64,000 bases of DNA from positions 3,083,001-3,147,000 of the forward strand of contig NZ_KE386491.1 in assembly GCF_000427405.1 (NCBI RefSeq), read 5' to 3'. Below the pieces are notes generated by a model. It did not search any database and had not been told where the DNA came from. It saw nothing but the letters and a program-made list of their open reading frames with translations. The position numbers were made by a program, and so were the translations under genes. Below, in pieces: positions 6,404-14,404 of this stretch (its first letter is position 1; each line of letters begins with the position of its first letter). Source of the stretch: Flectobacillus major DSM 103. GTDB taxonomy: Bacteria > Bacteroidota > Bacteroidia > Cytophagales > Spirosomataceae.

Positions 6404-6419
6404 TGTAACTTTTATCACG
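6404..6419 (+). promoter_or_regulatory. CRP/FNR-type operator, site 1 (rhodanese gene)
   Basis: TGTAACTTTTATCACG, a 16-bp imperfect dyad (half-sites TGTAA and TCAC with a 6-bp centre). Its centre (6411.5) is 33.5 bp upstream of the TTTG in GAATTTTG (6441-6448), a near match to the Bacteroidota -7 element. The rhodanese start codon is 32 bp beyond that element. Confidence 0.7.
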
Positions 6420-6479
6420 GAAAGGCACTTGGTATTCAGCGAATTTTGGGCTATAATCATTTAGAAAACAACTATAGCT

Positions 6480-6806
6480 ATGTTCGATTTTTTTAAACCC
6501 AAGAAAAACTACGAGAACCTGTCGGCAACCGCTTTCAACCAACTTTTGAACGAAATGCCAAATGCAGTATTGATAGATGTAAGAACGCCCCAAGAATTTA
6601 GACAAGGTGCCATAGAGAATGCCATTAATATCGACCTTATGAGCAACGACTTTAGTCAAAAAATAGCAAAACTACCTAAAGACAAAGCCTATTTTGTATA
6701 TTGTAGAAGTGGCAATCGCAGCGGCTCGGCTTGTAAACATCTTGGCAATAATGGCTTTGAGCAAGTGTACAATCTGTCGGGGGGTATTATGAGCTGGAGC
6801 TTTTAG
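6480..6806 (+). CDS. Single-domain rhodanese (sulfurtransferase)
   Basis: A 108-residue cytoplasmic rhodanese. LIDVRTPQEF (31-40) is the CH2A-type motif and the active-site loop is CRSGNRS with nucleophile Cys75, expected to carry a persulfide; the C-terminal NLSGGIMSW is typical. A thiosulfate or glutathione/low-molecular-weight persulfide sulfurtransferase role fits. It sits between cydB and a persulfide dioxygenase, is preceded by CRP/FNR site 1 and followed by its own terminator, so it is probably a single-gene unit of the sulfide regulon. Confidence 0.9.
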   Translation: MFDFFKPKKNYENLSATAFNQLLNEMPNAVLIDVRTPQEFRQGAIENAINIDLMSNDFSQKIAKLPKDKAYFVYCRSGNRSGSACKHLGNNGFEQVYNLSGGIMSWSF

Positions 6807-6826
6807 CATACCCAATCTTATCACTC

Positions 6827-6867
6827 AATCCTGTAGAAGTGTTTTTTGCATTTCTACAGGATTTTTG
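6827..6867 (+). terminator. Rho-independent terminator after rhodanese
   Basis: Perfect 12-bp stem (AATCCTGTAGAA / TTCTACAGGATT) with a 13-nt loop, then TTTTTG. It lies 21 bp past the rhodanese stop and separates it from the MBL gene. Confidence 0.85.
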
Positions 6868-6924
6868 TGTTTAGTACAAAAAACTATTTGGCCCTCCCAA
6901 AACTGATATTTATCACATACCTTT

Positions 6925-6940
6925 TGTGAGGAAAGTTACA
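6925..6940 (+). promoter_or_regulatory. CRP/FNR-type operator, site 2 (persulfide dioxygenase gene)
   Basis: TGTGAGGAAAGTTACA, 16 bp. Its centre (6932.5) is exactly 33.5 bp upstream of the TTTG of a perfect TAnnTTTG element. A second partial copy ending in ATCACA (6902-6917) lies immediately upstream, with only that half conserved. Confidence 0.75.
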
Positions 6941-6961
6941 GAAGCCCACCTGTCATAGCAA

Positions 6962-6969
6962 TAACTTTG
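6962..6969 (+). promoter_or_regulatory. -7 promoter element of the MBL-rhodanese gene
   Basis: TAACTTTG matches the Bacteroidota -7 consensus TAnnTTTG exactly. No -33 TTTG is seen at the usual distance; CRP/FNR site 2 occupies that place. Start codon 38 bp downstream. Confidence 0.65.
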
Positions 6970-7006
6970 TTCTATCAATTTCAAGCATATTAAATAACTC
7001 ATCATC

Positions 7007-8419
7007 ATGAAAGTAGAACAAATTTATACAGGATGTTTGGCCGAAGCGGCTTATTATATTGAGTCAGCTGGCGAGGTTGCTATTATTGACCCATTGCGTG
7101 AATCAAAACCTTATATAGAGCGTGCCCAAAAAGACCATGCTACTATTAAGTATGTCTTTGAAACACACTTTCATGCCGATTTTGTATCGGGGCATATCGA
7201 CCTCTCTAACAAAACTGGAGCAACTATTGTATTTGGCCCCACAGCACAACCTGCTTACCCTGCCTATATTGCCAAGGATAATGAAGAATTTGTATTAGGA
7301 AAAGTAAAAATCAAGGTACTCCATACGCCAGGCCATACCATGGAATCGTCAACGTTTCTGTTGATTGATGAAAAAGGGCAAGATTACGCTATTTTTTCGG
7401 GCGATACCCTATTTATTGGGGATGTCGGTCGTCCAGATTTAGCCGTAAAATCAGACTTGAGCCAAGAAGATTTGGCAGGTTTGTTATACGAAAGTTTACA
7501 TAACAAAATCATGCCTTTGTCCGATAATGTTATTGTGTATCCTGGCCACGGTGCTGGCTCAGCTTGTGGCAAAAACATGAGCAAAGAAACAACCGATACA
7601 CTAGGCAACCAAAGGCGATTCAACTATGCTTTGCAAGCCAAAACCAAGGAAGCATTTATCAACGATGTACTTACAGGACTAGTAACGCCACCCCAGTATT
7701 TCCCCAAAAATGCAGTTATGAATAAAATGGGGTATGCCAACGTAGACGAAGTACTCCAAAAAGGAACAAGAGCCCTTAGTCCAGCAGCATTTGAAGCAGC
7801 CAGCAATGAAGAAAATGCCCTTATTTTGGATGTTCGTCAAGCACAAACATTTGCACAAGGGTTTATTCCCAATGCTATTAATATAGGCTTAGAAGGCCAG
7901 TTTGCTTCTTGGGTAGGTACTTTGATTCCAGACTTACAACAGGCTATTGTACTAATAACCGACGAGGGCAAAGAACAAGAAGCGGTATTACGCCTTTCAA
8001 GGGTCGGTTACGATAATTGCATTGGTTATTTGGAAGGAGGTTTTGAGGCATGGAAAAACGAAGGCCGAGCAATAGACACTATCGAGTCTATCAGTGCCGA
8101 AGAGTTTGCCAAACGTTTCAAAAGCCAAGTCCATATTATGGCCTTTGATGTCCGTCGAAAAAGTGAATACGATTCTGAACACGTAATTGGTATCGAAAAT
8201 CTGCCCCTTGATTTTCTTAATAATCACTTATCGGCTATCAATCGCAACATTACTACCTATATACACTGTGCAGGCGGTTACCGTTCGATGTTGGCCATTT
8301 CAATCTTAAAAGCTCGTGGATTCAACAACCTGATTGATATTACTGGCGGCTTTGCTGCCATTAAACAAACAGGACAATTGGCACTTACCGACTACGTTTG
8401 TCCTTCTACTTTGCTATAA
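7007..8419 (+). CDS. Persulfide dioxygenase-like MBL protein with two rhodanese domains
   Basis: A 470-residue cytoplasmic protein. The MBL domain (1-250) has H54-F-H56-A-D58-F59, H110, D133 and H181. The Phe after Asp58 replaces the His used for a second metal, as expected for a mononuclear-iron persulfide dioxygenase of the ETHE1/CstB type, which oxidises persulfide sulfur to sulfite. The first rhodanese domain (about 262-355) has Asp319 in the place of the active Cys and is probably structural. The second (about 363-462) keeps Cys421 in HCAGGYRS. This is the domain order of staphylococcal CstB. It stands alone behind CRP/FNR site 2. Confidence 0.9.
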   Translation: MKVEQIYTGCLAEAAYYIESAGEVAIIDPLRESKPYIERAQKDHATIKYVFETHFHADFVSGHIDLSNKTGATIVFGPTAQPAYPAYIAKDNEEFVLGKVKIKVLHTPGHTMESSTFLLIDEKGQDYAIFSGDTLFIGDVGRPDLAVKSDLSQEDLAGLLYESLHNKIMPLSDNVIVYPGHGAGSACGKNMSKETTDTLGNQRRFNYALQAKTKEAFINDVLTGLVTPPQYFPKNAVMNKMGYANVDEVLQKGTRALSPAAFEAASNEENALILDVRQAQTFAQGFIPNAINIGLEGQFASWVGTLIPDLQQAIVLITDEGKEQEAVLRLSRVGYDNCIGYLEGGFEAWKNEGRAIDTIESISAEEFAKRFKSQVHIMAFDVRRKSEYDSEHVIGIENLPLDFLNNHLSAINRNITTYIHCAGGYRSMLAISILKARGFNNLIDITGGFAAIKQTGQLALTDYVCPSTLL

Positions 8420-8673
8420 ATATTCAATACACTTTTATTTAGTTCGCTTATTTATTGGTAGCGTATGTTGTCATACAGCGTTGCAGGATGTTTCTTCAAT
8501 AGCTTCACAAAAGCCTTTTTATGATTGGCTGTGAATACTTGGCAAACTTCGTGTAACGCTTTGTTGTATTGAAAGTTACGCTACTGTCTATTGAGTTGAC
8601 AGCCATTCGGATATGCTACGCTGATACCCCAACGAGTTGCTCTTATCAACTTTTCTTCTCAAAAATACGCTTG

Positions 8674-8689
8674 TGTGATAAAAGTTACA
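8674..8689 (+). promoter_or_regulatory. CRP/FNR-type operator, site 3 (YeeE leader)
   Basis: TGTGATAAAAGTTACA, the best example of the motif in the window. Its centre (8681.5) is 33.5 bp upstream of the TTTG of a perfect -7 element. The first annotated gene starts 430 bp away, unlike the other sites. Weaker copies lie at 8565-8580 and, with a 7-bp centre, at 8824-8840. Confidence 0.75.
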
Positions 8690-8710
8690 TTATGCCCCAT
8701 TAGTAATATG

Positions 8711-8718
8711 TACTTTTG
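8711..8718 (+). promoter_or_regulatory. -7 promoter element upstream of the yeeE pair
   Basis: TACTTTTG matches TAnnTTTG exactly and is spaced from operator site 3 exactly as at site 2. Transcription from here would give a leader of roughly 395 nt before the yeeE-like gene. Confidence 0.6.
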
Positions 8719-8751
8719 TATGCTTTTAGTAGCGAAGGGTTCTCTACAATA

Positions 8752-8817
8752 ATGAACTTTTTATCTATTAATTTATATTTAATAAGTGTACAAAATAGAA
8801 AAATGCCCGCTTCGTGA
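8752..8817 (+). CDS. Possible 21-residue leader ORF
   Basis: An ATG 34 bp after the -7 element at 8711 opens a 21-codon frame (starting MNFLSINLYLIS, ending KMPAS). Its distance to the -7 element equals that of the real genes behind sites 1, 2 and 4 (32, 38 and 27 bp). There is no homology I recognise and the composition is simply AT-rich, so chance is quite possible. It could be a leader peptide or the stub of a lost gene. Confidence 0.2.
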   Translation: MNFLSINLYLISVQNRKMPAS

Positions 8818-9119
8818 ATACTCTGTAATATCATGTTACACTAGCTTTATCGCTTAGCGTTATTTACTTTATAAAATGTCGTATATACATACGTGTAACT
8901 TTACGTTCTTTTTTTGCCATTGTTCCATCATCAAAAAAACACTCATTCATTATTGCATTTATCTGTTTATCAAACCATTAAAATACAATTTATCTATTCA
9001 GTTGATTACTTAATATGGAAACTTAGTATTTTAAACATTTACTTATTTTATTGAATAAATGTCAGTAAATTTATCCAACAAACTCTATAGAATAGCACGA
9101 CAAATTAAACATAATATAA
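8818..9119. other. AT-rich gap before the yeeE pair, no gene seen
   Basis: No convincing coding frame on either strand. It contains an inverted pair TGTAA...TTACA (8824-8840, 7-bp spacer) and a lone TGTAAC half-site near 8894. No exact TAnnTTTG element is found close to the downstream start codon at 9120. Confidence 0.5.
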
Positions 9120-9692
9120 ATGGAGCTACTTGAATTAATCAAAAAACCTTGGCCTTGGTATGTGGCAGGCCCGCTAATTGGACTTACCGTGCCAACGTTA
9201 TTACTTATTGGTAACAAATCCTTTGGTATTTCTTCGTCGTTGAGGCATATATGTGCCGCTTGTATTCCTGCCGACATTTCGTTTTTTAAATACGATTGGA
9301 AAAAAGAGGTTTGGAATTTATTTTTTGTATTCGGTATATTTTTAGGTGGATTTATCGCCACTAATTTTCTCAAAAACCCCGATACCTTTGTCATTGCCCC
9401 CGAAACTATAGCCGACCTCAAGGCTTTAGGTATCAAAGATTTTTCGGGATTGATGCCCTCCGATTTATTTTCTCTGGAAAGTTTACTTAGCTTAAAAGGC
9501 TTTATTTTCTTTGTTGTAGGAGGTTTTATGGTAGGATTTGGCACTCGTTGGGCAGGTGGTTGTACATCGGGTCATGCCATCATGGGTATTTCTAATTTAC
9601 AATTACCTTCGGTTGTTGCTACCTGTTGCTTTATGATAGGCGGCTTTGCCATGACTCATTTGATTTTGCCATTTATTTTCAAACTATTCTAA
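9120..9692 (+). CDS. YeeE/YedE family transporter, N-terminal-half protein
   Basis: A 190-residue inner-membrane protein of the YeeE/YedE (DUF395) sulfur-transport family. It carries the signature [11 protein letters not shown] with Cys148 in the pore-type motif, plus Cys45 and Cys48 (HICAACIP) in a loop. In single-chain YeeE proteins two such halves are fused; here the second half is the next gene. Thiosulfate or a related reduced sulfur species is the likely substrate. It is the first gene of a pair under CRP/FNR site 3. Confidence 0.85.
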
Positions 9693-9708
9693 AAGTACTT
9701 TCAGTATT

Positions 9709-10206
9709 ATGAAAAATATAGCAGAAAACCCTCTCAATCAGGTCGAAGAATTTGTGTGCGAAGCACCCAACGATATGAAGAAGCCCGAAAATGGACTTGC
9801 CAATCTCAAATACCTTATTGTAGGTATTCTGTTTGGGATTGTGTTTGTCAAAGCCGAAATTATCTCGTGGTTTCGTATTCAAGAAATGTTTCGTTTACAA
9901 AGTTTTCACATGTATGGCGTAATTGGCAGTGCCGTAATGGTGGGGATGTTGTCGATTTTTCTTATCAAAAAGTTCAATATAAAAACCCTTTCAGGAGAAA
10001 AGGTTGAGTTTCATCCGAAAAAATTTCAGAAAGGACAAATCTATGGTGGTTTACTATTTGGCTTGGGTTGGGCTATTACAGGAGCTTGCCCTGGGCCTTT
10101 ATTTGCCCAAATCGGCAGTGGGTTCACCGTTGTGATTGTGACTTTACTAAGTGCCATTGCTGGTACTTGGACGTATGGTTATTTCAGAGACAAACTTCCT
10201 AATTAA
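9709..10206 (+). CDS. YeeE/YedE family transporter, second-half protein (DUF6691-like)
   Basis: A 165-residue membrane protein with about four helices, 16 bp after its partner. The second YeeE signature GWAITGACPGP contains Cys127. The N-terminal ~30 residues are a soluble extension with one Cys (C17). The pair resembles PmpA/PmpB-type split transporters that travel with persulfide dioxygenases. The two proteins are expected to form one heteromeric channel. Confidence 0.85.
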   Translation: MKNIAENPLNQVEEFVCEAPNDMKKPENGLANLKYLIVGILFGIVFVKAEIISWFRIQEMFRLQSFHMYGVIGSAVMVGMLSIFLIKKFNIKTLSGEKVEFHPKKFQKGQIYGGLLFGLGWAITGACPGPLFAQIGSGFTVVIVTLLSAIAGTWTYGYFRDKLPN

Positions 10207-10249
10207 ACTACGATCTTGCCTACTTGGCTTTAGACGGTTTGTTGGGTTA

Positions 10250-10265
10250 TGTAACATTTATCACA
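10250..10265 (+). promoter_or_regulatory. CRP/FNR-type operator, site 4 (SQR gene)
   Basis: TGTAACATTTATCACA, 16 bp. Its centre (10257.5) is 32.5 bp upstream of the TTTG of ACAATTTG (10286-10293), one base off the spacing at the other sites. The SQR start is 27 bp past that element. The right end overlaps the left arm of a long inverted repeat. Confidence 0.7.
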
Positions 10266-10317
10266 GAATGATTGTGTTTTTTAAGACAATTTGCAGAAAA
10301 AACATAATCATTCTGTG
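10262..10317. repeat. 21-bp inverted repeat flanking the SQR -7 element
   Basis: Arms 10262-10282 and 10297-10317 pair over 21 bp (outer 12 bp CACAGAATGATT / AATCATTCTGTG, then one G-T pair, then T-rich against A-rich) around a 14-nt loop that holds the putative -7 element. No T-run follows, so it is not a standard terminator for the yeeE pair. It ends two bases before the SQR start codon. Confidence 0.75.
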
Positions 10318-10319
10318 TC

Positions 10320-11524
10320 ATGACTCATCATTTCAACATACTTATTATTGGGGGTGGCAATGCTGGCTTATCGGTAGCCTCTCAATTGTTACTCAAAAAT
10401 AGTTCTCTTTCGATTGGCATTGTTGAGCCATCAGAAAAGCACTATTATCAACCAGCTTGGACTTTGGTAGGTGCTGGCGAATTTGATATTCGTGATACAG
10501 AAAAAACGAAAAAGACTTTATTCCCGACCGTTGTGTATGGCTAAAAGACGCTGCTGATACCTTTCAGCCCAAAGATAACCAAGTAACTTGTGTGAGTGGC
10601 CAAGTACTTCGGTATGATGCTTTGGTGGTAGCCCCTGGTATTCAGATCAACTGGCAACAAATCGAAGGGCTCGAAAATACCCTTGGTAAAAACGGTGTAA
10701 CCAGCAACTATTCATTCCAGATTGCTCCATACACATGGGAGCTTATCCAAAACTTTAATGGAGGCGTAGCTGTATTTACCAATCCCTCCACCCCTATCAA
10801 ATGTGGCGGAGCTCCTCACAAAATCATGTATCTAGCTTGTGATTATTGGCGTAAAAAAGGAATATTAGACCTTTGCGAAGTCCATTATATTTCGGGAGCA
10901 AGCGTTATTTTTGGGGTAAAAGAATACGCCCAAACCCTTGAAGGCGTTGTAGCTCAAAACAATATTCATACTCATTTTGGAGCAAATACTTTTGCTATCG
11001 AAGGGGAAAGCAAGTTTGTACGATTTGAACAAAAAGATACCAATGGAGTATCTATCCAAAAAACTATGCACTTTGACTTTTGTCATATCGTACCTCCACA
11101 AAGTGCTCCTGATTTTATTAAAAAAAGCCCTTTGTCCGACACCCAAAACCCATTAGGTTATGCTGAGGTTAATAAAAACACAATGCAGCATAGCCGTTTT
11201 CCCAATATTTTTGCCCTAGGCGACTGTACCAATGCCCCTTGTAGCAAAACAGGAGCAGCCATTCCTAAACAAGCACCAGTGGTAGTCCAAAATATTCTTG
11301 ACGTATTGAACCAGCAAGCACCCTCGGCCAGTTATACAGGTTATAGTGCCTGCCCCATACCAACCCAATACGGCAAACTAATGCTGGCCGAGTTTGATTA
11401 TACCAATACCCCAACTATGACATTCCCCTTTAATCAGGCTGTTCCGAGGTGGAGTATGTGGATACTCAAAAAATATATATTACCGTGGTTATACTGGCAT
11501 AAAATTCTGAAAGGAAAAGCCTAA
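10320..11524 (+). CDS. sqr: Sulfide:quinone oxidoreductase, interrupted by a one-base frameshift
   Basis: FAD enzyme that oxidises sulfide to persulfide and reduces quinone at the membrane. The N-terminal part (10320-10544) has the Rossmann motif GGGNAG (11-16). The frame breaks at a six-A run (10501-10506). Restoring one A, or a -1 slip on the AAA codon, gives ...DTEKNEKDFIPDRCVW... and a continuous 401-residue product, the normal SQR length. In that numbering Cys162 (KCGGAPHKIMYL) and Cys303 (GDCTNAPCSKT) match the redox cysteines of type II SQR. Without repair the second part could start only at the GTG at 10592 and would lack the FAD-binding N-terminus. This may be a sequencing error, a recent mutation or recoding. 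Confidence 0.8.
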
Positions 11525-11578
11525 TCCATCAACTATATTATTGTAGTTTTTTGGCGTAACTTGTCCTACAAACTAGCC

Positions 11579-11606
11579 GACGGATAAGTTTTAGGACATA
11601 TCCGTC
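11579..11606. repeat. Short inverted repeat in the crp/fnr leader
   Basis: GACGGATA (11579-11586) and TATCCGTC (11599-11606) form a perfect 8-bp pair with a 12-nt spacer, about 29 bp before the regulator start. A degenerate CRP/FNR-like site (11555-11570, about 11 of 16 matches) lies just upstream and might allow weak autoregulation. Confidence 0.35.
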
Positions 11607-11634
11607 AGCATGCTTCACAAATAACACGACTATC

Positions 11635-12264
11635 ATGAATCTGACATTTGTAGAAAAAAACTTTACGGGACTTTTTGAAAAAGCTCTTTTAGAAGAATTA
11701 TCGCAGATTGGTAACTATATGGAACTAGACGAAGGACACGTAATTATGCGACCAGGAGGCTATATTCGTACCGTACCGATTGTATTGACAGGTTCTATCA
11801 AAATCCTCAGGCCCGACGACGAAGGCCGAGAAGCCCTATTATATTACCTCGGTGGCATGGATTCCTGTGCCATGTCGCTAACGTGTTGTCTCGACCGCAA
11901 AAAGAGTGAAATATTGGCCATTACAGAAGAAAAAACCACTTTGATTACTATACCTGTAGAAAAAATTGAAGAATGGATGTGCAAATATTCTACTTGGCGA
12001 CAATTTGTGTTTTTAACCTATCAAAGGCGTTTTGAAGATTTGCTTAATGCCGTTGACGAAATAGCCTTTCATAAACTCGACGAGCGGCTATTGAGCCTTT
12101 TACAAAGGAAAAGCAAGCAAACCAAAAATAAAACTATTGTTATAACACACGAAGTATTAGCTGGCGAACTAGCAACCTCCAGAGAAGTAGTATCGAGGCT
12201 ACTCAAACAATTGGAAAAACTAGGTAAAGTGAAATTATCTCGCAACAAAATTGAACTTATGTAA
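11635..12264 (+). CDS. CRP/FNR family transcription regulator of the sulfide locus
   Basis: A 209-residue regulator: cyclic-nucleotide-binding-type beta-roll (about 15-120), dimer helix, then winged HTH (about 145-209). The recognition helix TSREVVSRLL (181-190) keeps Arg183, Glu184 and Arg188, the three residues CRP uses to read TGTGA; this fits the TGTGAT/TGTAAC half-sites found upstream of four neighbouring units. The sensor domain has Cys78, Cys84, Cys85 and Cys116. There is no FNR-type N-terminal cysteine cluster. Thiol-based sensing of persulfide at C78/C84/C85 is my inference. Confidence 0.88.
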   Translation: MNLTFVEKNFTGLFEKALLEELSQIGNYMELDEGHVIMRPGGYIRTVPIVLTGSIKILRPDDEGREALLYYLGGMDSCAMSLTCCLDRKKSEILAITEEKTTLITIPVEKIEEWMCKYSTWRQFVFLTYQRRFEDLLNAVDEIAFHKLDERLLSLLQRKSKQTKNKTIVITHEVLAGELATSREVVSRLLKQLEKLGKVKLSRNKIELM

Positions 12265-12649
12265 CCCTCAAGCACAAGCAAAGCTATAATAACATTATTA
12301 CTCTTTCTCAGGATTTTGTATTGGAAAAAAAGGCATAGTTTAGCACAAAAACTATCCTTTTTCTATTTTCACCTCTATAAATCTCTTAATAGTCGCAGTA
12401 TTGATAAAAAAAAAATCAAACTCCTTGACAAATTAAAAGATTGGTATTATCATTGCACTACGAATAACTGTTCAGTGATATTCTCCAGTTAAGCTCCTTA
12501 CTAATAATTGCTTAACAATCATCTTCCACCTCGTACCAAATTTCCGAATTTTGATTGTAACGTTTATCATCTTTTATACAATTGTAATAAACTTAACCAC
12601 CAATATCTTTTGAGGCTCTGCAACGCAACAAGCCTTATAATTTACCCGT
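12265..12649. other. Gap between the regulator and rho, no gene seen
   Basis: AT-rich with no convincing frame. It contains a near copy of the CRP/FNR motif (TGTAACGTTTATCATC, 12556-12571, 13 of 16 matches) without a -7 element at the right distance. The rho promoter is presumably here. Confidence 0.45.
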
Positions 12650-14404
12650 ATGTATAATATTGAAGAATTAGAAATAAAGCTTATTTCAGAGCTTCGTGAG
12701 CTTGCCAAAGGGCTAAATATCCAGAATACGATTGACCTACCAAAAAAAGAACTCATCTATAAAATACTTGAACAGCAGGAAAAAAGTAACACCCAAACAC
12801 TAAAACCTGCTTCTAGCGATGCTATGGAAAATGAACAAAAACCAGAGAGAAAAGTGAGGAAAGAGAGTGCTTCAGCATCAGACAGCCCACGCCCAAAAAG
12901 ACAACGCATTCAGAAAGGTGACTCTGAGGCCGAAACGCCCGTTGCGGCTATTCCAGAGCCAATATTCAAGCCTGAGCCTGTCAAAACAAAACCTGCTCGT
13001 GAGGTAAAACCAAAAAAAGCAGCAGTAGAAGATATCGTATTTGACTTCGATGAAGAACCTATCGTAATAGACCTTCCAGAAGATGTAGAAGACGAATTTG
13101 CCTCAATAGACACCTCGTTTATTACAACATCGCCAGAAGAATTAGGCGTAAATGTAAGTACAAACAATTTTCGACCAGAACCAACCGTCGAAAACAATCG
13201 TCAAGAGAATAATCGTCCTGCACAAAATACTCCAAATACTGGCGGAAATATCCGCAAACCAATATATAATCAAGCAATTCGAGAGTTTGACGGTATTATC
13301 GAGAACGAAGGTGTACTCGAAATTATGCAAGATGGCGGCTATGGTTTCTTACGTTCGGCCGACTACAATTACTTGGCTTCGCCCGATGATATTTATGTAT
13401 CGCCTTCGCAAATCAAGTTATTTGGCCTAAAAACAGGTGATACTGTACGTGGAGCTATCAGACCTCCTAAAGAAGGTGAAAAATACTTTGCTTTGCTTAG
13501 GGTAGAATCTGTCAATGGAAAAACCACCGAAGAAATCCGTGACCGTATTCCTTTTGAATACCTTACTCCGCTCTTCCCTGATGAAAAATTAAACCTTTCT
13601 TCTCGTCCTGACCAATATTCAACCCGTATTTTAGATTTATTTGCCCCTATCGGTAAAGGTCAGCGTGGTATGATTGTGGCCCAGCCCAAAACAGGTAAAA
13701 CGGTGTTGTTGAAAGAAATTGCAAATGCTATTTCTAAAAATCACCCAGAGGTATATTTGTTGATTTTACTTATCGACGAACGCCCAGAAGAGGTTACCGA
13801 TATGCAACGTAGCGTACGTGCCGAAGTAATATCATCTACCTTCGACGAACAAGCCGAACGCCATGTTAAAGTAGCAAGTATTGTGCTAGAAAAAGCTAAA
13901 CGTATGGTAGAGTGTGGTCATGATGTTGTGATTTTGTTAGATTCAATCACTCGCTTGGCTCGTGCGTATAATACGGTCGTTCCATCTTCAGGAAAAATTC
14001 TTTCGGGTGGGGTCGATGCCAATGCTTTGCACAAACCAAAACGTTTCTTTGGGGCTGCTCGTAACGTAGAAAATGGTGGTTCTTTAACCATTATTGCAAC
14101 AGCCCTTATCGATACTGGTTCTAAAATGGACGAAGTTATCTTTGAAGAATTTAAAGGTACTGGTAATATGGAATTACAACTCGACCGTAAGCTATCTAAC
14201 CGTCGTATGTTCCCTGCTATCGACGTTCCTGCTTCGGGTACTCGTCGTGAAGACTTGTTGATGGATAAAGAAACGCTACAACGTGTCTGGATTCTTCGCA
14301 AACACATGAGCGACATGAATTCTGTAGAAGCTATGGATTTCTTGTTGCAACAAATGAAACATAGTCGAAACAATGATGAGTTTTTAGCATCTATGAATCG
14401 ATAA
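12650..14404 (+). CDS. rho: Transcription termination factor Rho with long acidic insert
   Basis: A 584-residue RNA-dependent ATPase, about 165 longer than E. coli Rho. A Rho_N helical domain covers about 1-45. A disordered, charged and Asn/Pro-rich insert spans about 46-205. The cold-shock-type RNA-binding domain follows ([16 protein letters not shown], about 222-300). Walker A AQPKTGKT is at 344-351, Walker [15 protein letters not shown] follows, and the Q-loop/R-loop segments ([30 protein letters not shown]) are intact. Such inserts are common in Bacteroidota Rho. It is monocistronic, with a strong terminator. Confidence 0.97.

Follow-up and report, generated by a model that had tools for sequence, protein, structure and literature searches.

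A conserved operator and a candidate CRP/FNR-type regulator at sulfide genes of Flectobacillus major and other Bacteroidota

Flectobacillus major DSM 103 carries, within a 64,000-nucleotide stretch of its ~6.2 Mb genome (contig NZ_KE386491.1, positions 3,083,001 to 3,147,000; hereafter the window), a cluster of sulfide-handling genes in the same locus as a gene for a regulator of the CRP/FNR family, which starts at window position 11635. Comparison with related genomes demonstrated that a predicted operator, the 16-bp palindrome TGTRAY-N4-RTYACA, is conserved at one spacing from the promoter -7 box and is linked to the clade of this regulator. On this sequence evidence we judge the regulon to be real and conserved, and a CRP/FNR-type regulator is strongly implicated in it. 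We propose that the 11635 gene encodes a CRP/FNR-type activator, a dimer of which would occupy the palindrome at -41.5, the position from which class II activators contact RNA polymerase, and would turn on the genes for rhodanese, persulfide dioxygenase (PDO), YeeE, and sulfide:quinone reductase (SQR) together with distant sulfur genes. The signal would most likely derive from sulfide, as a persulfide or polysulfide, and act at a conserved cysteine, Cys78, at the location of the cyclic AMP (cAMP)-binding loop of CRP. Taken as a whole, we judge this scheme to be moderately probable.

Operators and promoter geometry

The four predicted operators (Table 1) lie where a first-pass annotation of the window had placed them, and our recount of the spacing, measured from the operator centre to the first T of TTTG, returned the same 33.5 bp at three sites and 32.5 bp at the fourth. 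That annotation wrote the motif as TGTGAT-AAAA-GTTACA or its reverse; the sites stood, but this form of the motif gave way to the near-palindrome TGTRAY-N4-RTYACA. With at most one mismatch, six such palindromes occur in the window, and TTTG follows at 32.5 or 33.5 bp in the four at sulfide genes and is absent at these distances from the other two (21674 and 56017). The combination of palindrome and spaced TTTG was thus found four times in the window against 0.075 expected from first-order Markov sequences (maximum 1 in 40 runs), and the 16-mer of site 8674, allowing up to three mismatches, matched six times in the window against 1.75 expected. The word TRTGATAAANGTTACAT has two exact matches genome-wide, both inside the sulfide locus. 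A loose pattern, GTRAN6GTTAC with two mismatches, gave 260 matches against 334 expected and is too loose to inform. A further candidate at 12556 (three mismatches), before a large gene at 12650 that we took by eye to be rho, was dropped since TTTG, counted by eye, is missing at the right distance. The start codon of YeeE is 438 bp away from site 8674, so that the leader from the predicted +1 would be ~400 nt (8723-9119); in congeners L041-L043 about 290 bp separate site and gene.

In the available part of PMC6847099, the Flavobacterium johnsoniae -7 element is given as T-12 A-11 T-8 T-7 T-6 G-5. Since TTTG begins at -8 by this numbering, the operator centre falls at -41.5, in agreement with the first-pass placement near -41 and with the class II position for a predicted transcription start; the SQR site is 1 bp closer. 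The further first-pass suggestion, that a class II site replaces a missing -33 box, stood as to position but not as to the box: the -33 motif is described as weak in F. johnsoniae promoters (PMC6847099, in part), and because this is normal there, an absent -33 box says little.

Conservation was examined in 120 stretches, each containing a regulator homologue: 60 come from the same family and the other 60 from the wider phylum. Such homologues occur in 140 of 200 family genomes (E <= 1e-20) and 152 of 395 sampled phylum genomes (E <= 1e-35). To count as a site, a palindrome had to lie outside predicted open reading frames (ORFs) and have a start codon no more than 400 bp away; palindromes failing either rule did not enter the spacing count, and the box played no part in the selection. 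TTTG stood exactly 33.5 bp from the centre in 59 of 89 family sites (59 of 90 under a slightly different border rule) and in 29 of 61 phylum sites. It stood at 32.5 bp in four family sites and one phylum site and at 34.5 bp in two of each, while the remaining offsets averaged 0.28 sites (maximum 3) in the family and 0.47 (maximum 2) in the phylum. Sixty scrambled palindromes gave a mean of 0.22 sites at 33.5 bp (maximum 2) from 11.4 sites each on average. The 33.5-bp sites span 17 genera in the family and 22 in the phylum, with related loci not being independent. The first-pass annotation had proposed looking for the sites in orthologous loci; there they proved to be conserved, at one spacing, before sulfur genes and beside the regulator, and chance sites in an AT-rich genome were ruled out by spacing and conservation. 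As a separate observation made by eye, regulators of a subtype marked by ESCIMSFLGG (L202, L203, L234, L250, L252, L090) go with an asymmetric element near TGTAACAAAAGTAGCTGTA, seemingly at the same spacing.

The promoter geometry makes activation by the bound protein, rather than repression, quite likely. A repressor bound at -41.5, covering the upstream promoter until sulfide releases it in the manner of BigR, SqrR, and CstR, seems improbable: the available parts of PMC12423496 and PMC11211675 do call ArsR-type and CsoR-type sulfide regulators repressors, and the weak -33 box normal in F. johnsoniae would leave room for one, but a single exact offset suggests a requirement for polymerase contact, whereas a repressor would be expected to tolerate more positions.

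Regulated genes and the protein that reads the sites

A scorable PDO, YeeE, TauE, rhodanese, or SQR gene was present near the regulator in 48 of the 60 family stretches and 41 of the 60 phylum stretches. Among scored genes in the family loci, a spaced site preceded 25 of 28 TauE, 11 of 30 PDO, 7 of 22 rhodanese, 5 of 23 YeeE, and all three SQR genes, as well as 5 of 11 genes of a distant PDO type; summed over the phylum loci, 22 of 93 genes had one. The first-pass annotation called the regulon local, which is too narrow, as an exact site with its box precedes a rhodanese gene ~2.85 Mb away in the same genome. In 14 hand-chosen genomes searched throughout for the palindrome with its box, 15 exact sites turned up, all in nine of the ten genomes that have the regulator; the four that lack it gave none. 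When one mismatch was allowed, the counts were 80 against 40 for a reversed-pattern control in the regulator genomes and 5 against 4 in the others. The question raised by the first-pass annotation, whether the motif prefers these genes, was answered in its favor: nine of the exact sites stand before sulfur-type genes, namely PDO types (two, by eye), rhodanese (two), SoxA/TsdA-like cytochromes (two), TauE, YeeE, and a YgaP-like transmembrane protein, and one before the regulator. An OprD-like porin, a Tll0287-like protein, and a DUF983 protein account for one each, and two sites face no gene.

The OprD-like porin also lies behind a one-mismatch site in F. major (contig 7) and in genome G062, the porins being 37-39% identical, and operator plus box precede members of this porin family in three genomes that belong to different genera (C7:141498, equal to L133:5499; L299; L276). 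Because the family recurs behind sites in several genomes, the porin is seemingly a real member of the regulon, and its substrate is perhaps thiosulfate. Elsewhere in the F. major genome (C6, ~2109325-2138405) there are many near-identical matches to the pattern (AGTAACTTCCATTAGAATAAGGATTGAAAC and its complement) that resemble clustered regularly interspaced short palindromic repeats.

Sites and regulator go together, as the first-pass annotation had supposed they might: a spaced site occurred in 35 of the 48 scorable family regulator loci against 3 of 20 PDO loci taken from the listed PDO matches in genomes without a regulator match (Fisher p 1.3e-5, on loci that are not independent). For PDO genes alone the counts were 14 of 37 and 0 of 20, respectively, a comparison that ignores TauE, the gene ahead of PDO in most of those loci. 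The CRP-like Arg-Glu-Arg triad noted in the first pass is present as R183-E184-R188, with R183 and R188 found in all 124 homologues and residue 184 being E in 81, V in 42, and A in one. In CRP, Glu181 and Arg185 read the G4:C4 pair of TGTGA (PMC11253593, in part), and E184 is the equivalent of this Glu181. For sites accompanied by a TT[TC][GC] box and lying no more than 200 bp from a start, those at E184 loci kept TGTGA in one or both halves in 70 of 73 cases, and those at V184 loci had it in neither half in 14 of 18. Of 120 loci, 55 were usable for a comparison by locus, having both a site and E or V at residue 184, and the site type matched the residue in 51. We consider it very likely that the regulator binds the predicted sites directly.

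Several observations weigh against this proposal. In F. major, 6 of the 11 matches with at most one mismatch lie inside genes or face no gene, leaving 5 of 11 before a gene, and one of the ten regulator genomes lacks an exact site. A canonical spaced site is present in only 16 of 41 scorable phylum loci, and the ESCIMSFLGG subtype has, by eye, a differing proximal operator half. Four of the 55 loci disagree with the residue-184 rule, and since this residue changes only three times on the tree, the covariation amounts to two or three independent contrasts; on average 1.9 of 2 went in the expected direction, too few for significance. Exact, correctly spaced sites also stand before TauE in 3 of the 20 regulator-less loci (L257, L259, L265), whose genomes gave no match to the regulator at E <= 1e-8, one of them being just 63% complete, so either another protein can use the sites or the regulator was missed. 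Finally, F. major has further CRP/FNR-like genes, two of them seen by eye, and a loose first scan gave 16 such candidates, one at 1e-20.

The last two points are those that would favor another CRP/FNR paralogue as the reader of the sites, with the 11635 gene a mere neighbor. We regard this as very improbable, given the co-occurrence counts, the agreement of operator type with residue 184 (in 51 of 55 loci, of which few are independent), and the pairing of regulator and operators both throughout the phylum and on plasmids from a different one.

The regulator and its signal

The regulator has a Crp-type helix-turn-helix (PF13545, 36.4 bits; cut-off 27), and we take it to have a beta-roll of the cyclic-nucleotide-binding type: the window protein scores 25.5 bits, just under the cut-off of 27.5, and its L048 orthologue 37.6 bits. 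An AlphaFold2 model (predicted local distance difference test, pLDDT, 86; predicted template modeling score 0.62) has the CRP fold and matches CRP chains, with pLDDT dropping to ~56 at residues 81-90. Pfam and NCBIfam matches at E <= 0.001 were of CRP/FNR type only, with no ArsR or CsoR domain found. The N-terminal cysteine cluster that forms the 4Fe-4S sensor of FNR is lacking, and CooA is only a distant profile match. The closest named matches, at 87-89% identity, come from Flectobacillus (two), a Cytophagales bacterium (one), and Cellulophaga sp. (one).

Cysteines occur only at positions 78, 84, 85, and 116. The first-pass annotation put forward Cys78/84/85 as a sensor, and this trio had to be given up as essential: Cys78 is invariant in 63 of 63 family proteins, the window protein included, and in 61 of 61 phylum proteins, while C84 is absent from 9 of the 63 and 25 of the 61 (present in 54 and 36) and C85 from 17 and 31 (present in 46 and 30). 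Cys78 is the sole cysteine in 23 of the 124 homologues. These were collected by similarity, so cysteine conservation here describes a biased sample.

In CRP, the GELGLF loop, the Glu of which is Glu72, holds cAMP. A profile alignment placed Cys78 just before this loop, the Glu of which is replaced by Ala, and the protein scores 40.1 bits against the cAMP-CRP equivalog NF008732 (cut-off 266). cAMP was rejected as the effector since the loop with its Glu is not kept.

The genes that the sites precede make a sulfur signal probable, and reaction of that signal at Cys78 is a narrowly favored possibility. The same regulon and operator could instead answer to something other than sulfur, with Cys78 binding heme or a metal, or sensing nitric oxide, oxygen, or general redox state through its thiol. 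The CRP/FNR proteins CooA and DNR sense gases through heme, and both are among the profile matches of the regulator; a heme-ligand cysteine of CooA presumably sits at about the Cys78 position, and a single conserved cysteine fits a ligand role. Genes like cydAB lie near the regulator in three other loci (L204, L220, L251), and cydAB adjoins the sulfide cluster in the window. On the other side, the genes at the sites are mostly sulfur genes and no site stands upstream of cydA in the window, which leads us to regard a non-sulfur signal as unlikely, and a sulfide-derived one as the better account.

The locus, its relatives, and known systems

The names PDO, TsuA, and SQR rest on domains and resemblance, because the matches fall below NCBIfam equivalog cut-offs; the window PDO, for instance, scores 56.9 bits against the Blh equivalog NF040641 (cut-off 625). 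The SQR frame is broken in the assembly: in the alignment a poly-A run near 10500 is one base shorter than its counterpart in three congeners, which may be either a real frameshift or an assembly error.

Table 1. Genes, predicted operators, and -7 boxes of the sulfide locus (window positions)
Feature	Position	Strand	Details
Predicted operator, rhodanese gene	6404..6419	+	TGTAACTTTTATCACG; 1 mismatch to TGTRAYN4RTYACA; predicted centre -41.5
-7 box, rhodanese gene	6441..6448	+	GAATTTTG; TTTG 33.5 bp from operator centre; predicted +1 at 6453
Single-domain rhodanese	6480..6806	+	PF00581
Predicted operator, PDO-like gene	6925..6940	+	TGTGAGGAAAGTTACA; 1 mismatch
-7 box, PDO-like gene	6962..6969	+	TAACTTTG; 33.5 bp; predicted +1 at 6974
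Persulfide-dioxygenase-like protein (PDO)	7007..8419	+	Metallo-beta-lactamase PF00753 and two rhodanese stretches PF00581
Predicted operator, YeeE pair	8674..8689	+	TGTGATAAAAGTTACA; exact; identical word in congeners L041-L043
-7 box, YeeE pair	8711..8718	+	TACTTTTG; 33.5 bp; predicted +1 at 8723
YeeE/TsuA-like half transporter	9120..9692	+	PF04143; NF052577 match below cut-off
YeeE/DUF6691 half transporter	9709..10206	+	PF04143 and PF20398
Predicted operator, SQR-like gene	10250..10265	+	TGTAACATTTATCACA; exact
-7 box, SQR-like gene	10286..10293	+	ACAATTTG; 32.5 bp; predicted +1 at 10298
Sulfide:quinone reductase-like gene (SQR)	10320..11524	+	NF049943 matches both pieces, below its cut-off
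CRP/FNR-family regulator	11635..12264	+	PF13545; Cys78 in effector-domain loop; recognition residues R183-E184-R188

Against plasmids, tblastn gave 51 records. Thermus accounts for 19 of them; Paracoccus, Ruegeria, Thioclava, Azospirillum, and Thiothrix (the last from a sulfide spring) are among the others. We inspected 14 hand-picked loci, 11 of them proteobacterial. Nine of the 11 have a DUF2892/YgaP-like or YeeE gene after the regulator, and then a metallo-beta-lactamase-fold gene and more sulfur genes; the Thiothrix and Azospirillum loci have DUF2892 only. A palindrome 1 bp shorter than the Bacteroidota form, GTGAY-N3-RTYAC, lies between the regulator and the next gene in all 11 (0.0009 per shuffled interval). 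It was noticed by eye in the first five loci and then held in the six later ones, and no other spacer from 0 to 8 was seen between the half-sites in these loci. Several of the loci are close relatives and so are not 11 independent cases. All 11 proteins have a Cys-x5-Cys pair in the Cys78/Cys84 region. The Spirosoma linguale and Pontibacter plasmids carry TauE, PDO, and YeeE after the regulator, and spaced sites are present; the standard operator precedes TauE and PDO in the former and TauE, PDO, and two rhodaneses in the latter. On a Persicobacter psychrovividus plasmid (L309), a regulator homologue has a PatB-type C-S lyase nearby but no PDO cluster, and the ORF list around a 30%-identical gammaproteobacterial protein (L164), read by eye, contained no recognized sulfur cluster.

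These loci suggest, at about even odds, an old CRP/FNR clade of Bacteroidota, Alpha-, and Gammaproteobacteria in which a single thiol at the CRP cAMP site would sense reactive sulfur and activate sulfide, persulfide, and thiosulfate genes. The operator would have changed alongside the recognition helix (TGTGA becoming TGTAA as E became V), and it is 1 bp shorter in the Proteobacteria seen. If our proposal holds, a large part of the Bacteroidota would handle sulfide under a CRP/FNR-type regulator. The fixed -41.5 spacing marks out a set of activator-type promoters for this phylum's unusual sigma factor, and the covariation of E or V with the operator is a natural experiment in DNA recognition. 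One invariant cysteine would also call for a mechanism unlike the Cys-Cys link reported for SqrR and CstR.

Titles, abstract starts, and word searches of the open-access literature, a scope outside which most subscription papers and all preprints fall, turned up no CRP/FNR regulator of sulfide genes. The available parts of PMC11211675 and PMC12423496 state that FisR, SqrR, CstR, OxyR, CsoR, MarR, and ArsR-type SoxR/sHdrR respond to sulfane sulfur; the sulfide or sulfane-sulfur regulators named there are of the ArsR, CsoR/CstR, FisR, MarR, OxyR, and similar types. In the accessible text of a review on bacterial reactive sulfur (PMC9774590), 'Crp' occurs in two reference titles only and 'Fnr' nowhere. 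The nearest printed lead is a Crp-like protein of Acinetobacter baumannii, persulfidated without an assigned effect in the available part of PMC7315123. For the closest known systems, the likenesses and differences are as follows.

FisR, a sigma-54 activator, is unrelated to CRP/FNR in protein family and promoter type. It resembles the proposed regulator in activating sulfide-oxidizing genes and in responding to sulfane sulfur (PMC11211675, in part). SqrR, BigR, SoxR, and sHdrR of the ArsR family and CstR of the CsoR family likewise control pdo, sqr, or sox genes with sulfide or sulfane sulfur, according to the available parts of PMC12423496, PMC11211675, and PMC5823870; they differ in being repressors of other families, and sHdrR and SoxR have two conserved cysteines, whereas the F. 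major protein has one invariant cysteine and an activator-type position. Its closest solved relative is 3dv8, the Crp/Fnr protein EUBREC_1222 of Eubacterium rectale (4e-20; 1.4e-32 with a profile), which has cysteines at regulator positions 78 and 84 but comes from outside the Bacteroidota and carries only a putative function in its entry title. From CRP itself the regulator differs in having Cys78 before the GELGLF-loop position, in the change of the loop Glu to Ala, and in scoring 40 bits against a 266-bit cut-off; it shares with E. coli CRP and Thermus thermophilus CAP (4ev0; Foldseek TM 0.72) a like fold, and with CRP an R-E-x3-R motif for reading TGTGA, a 16-bp palindrome, and the -41.5 class II geometry.

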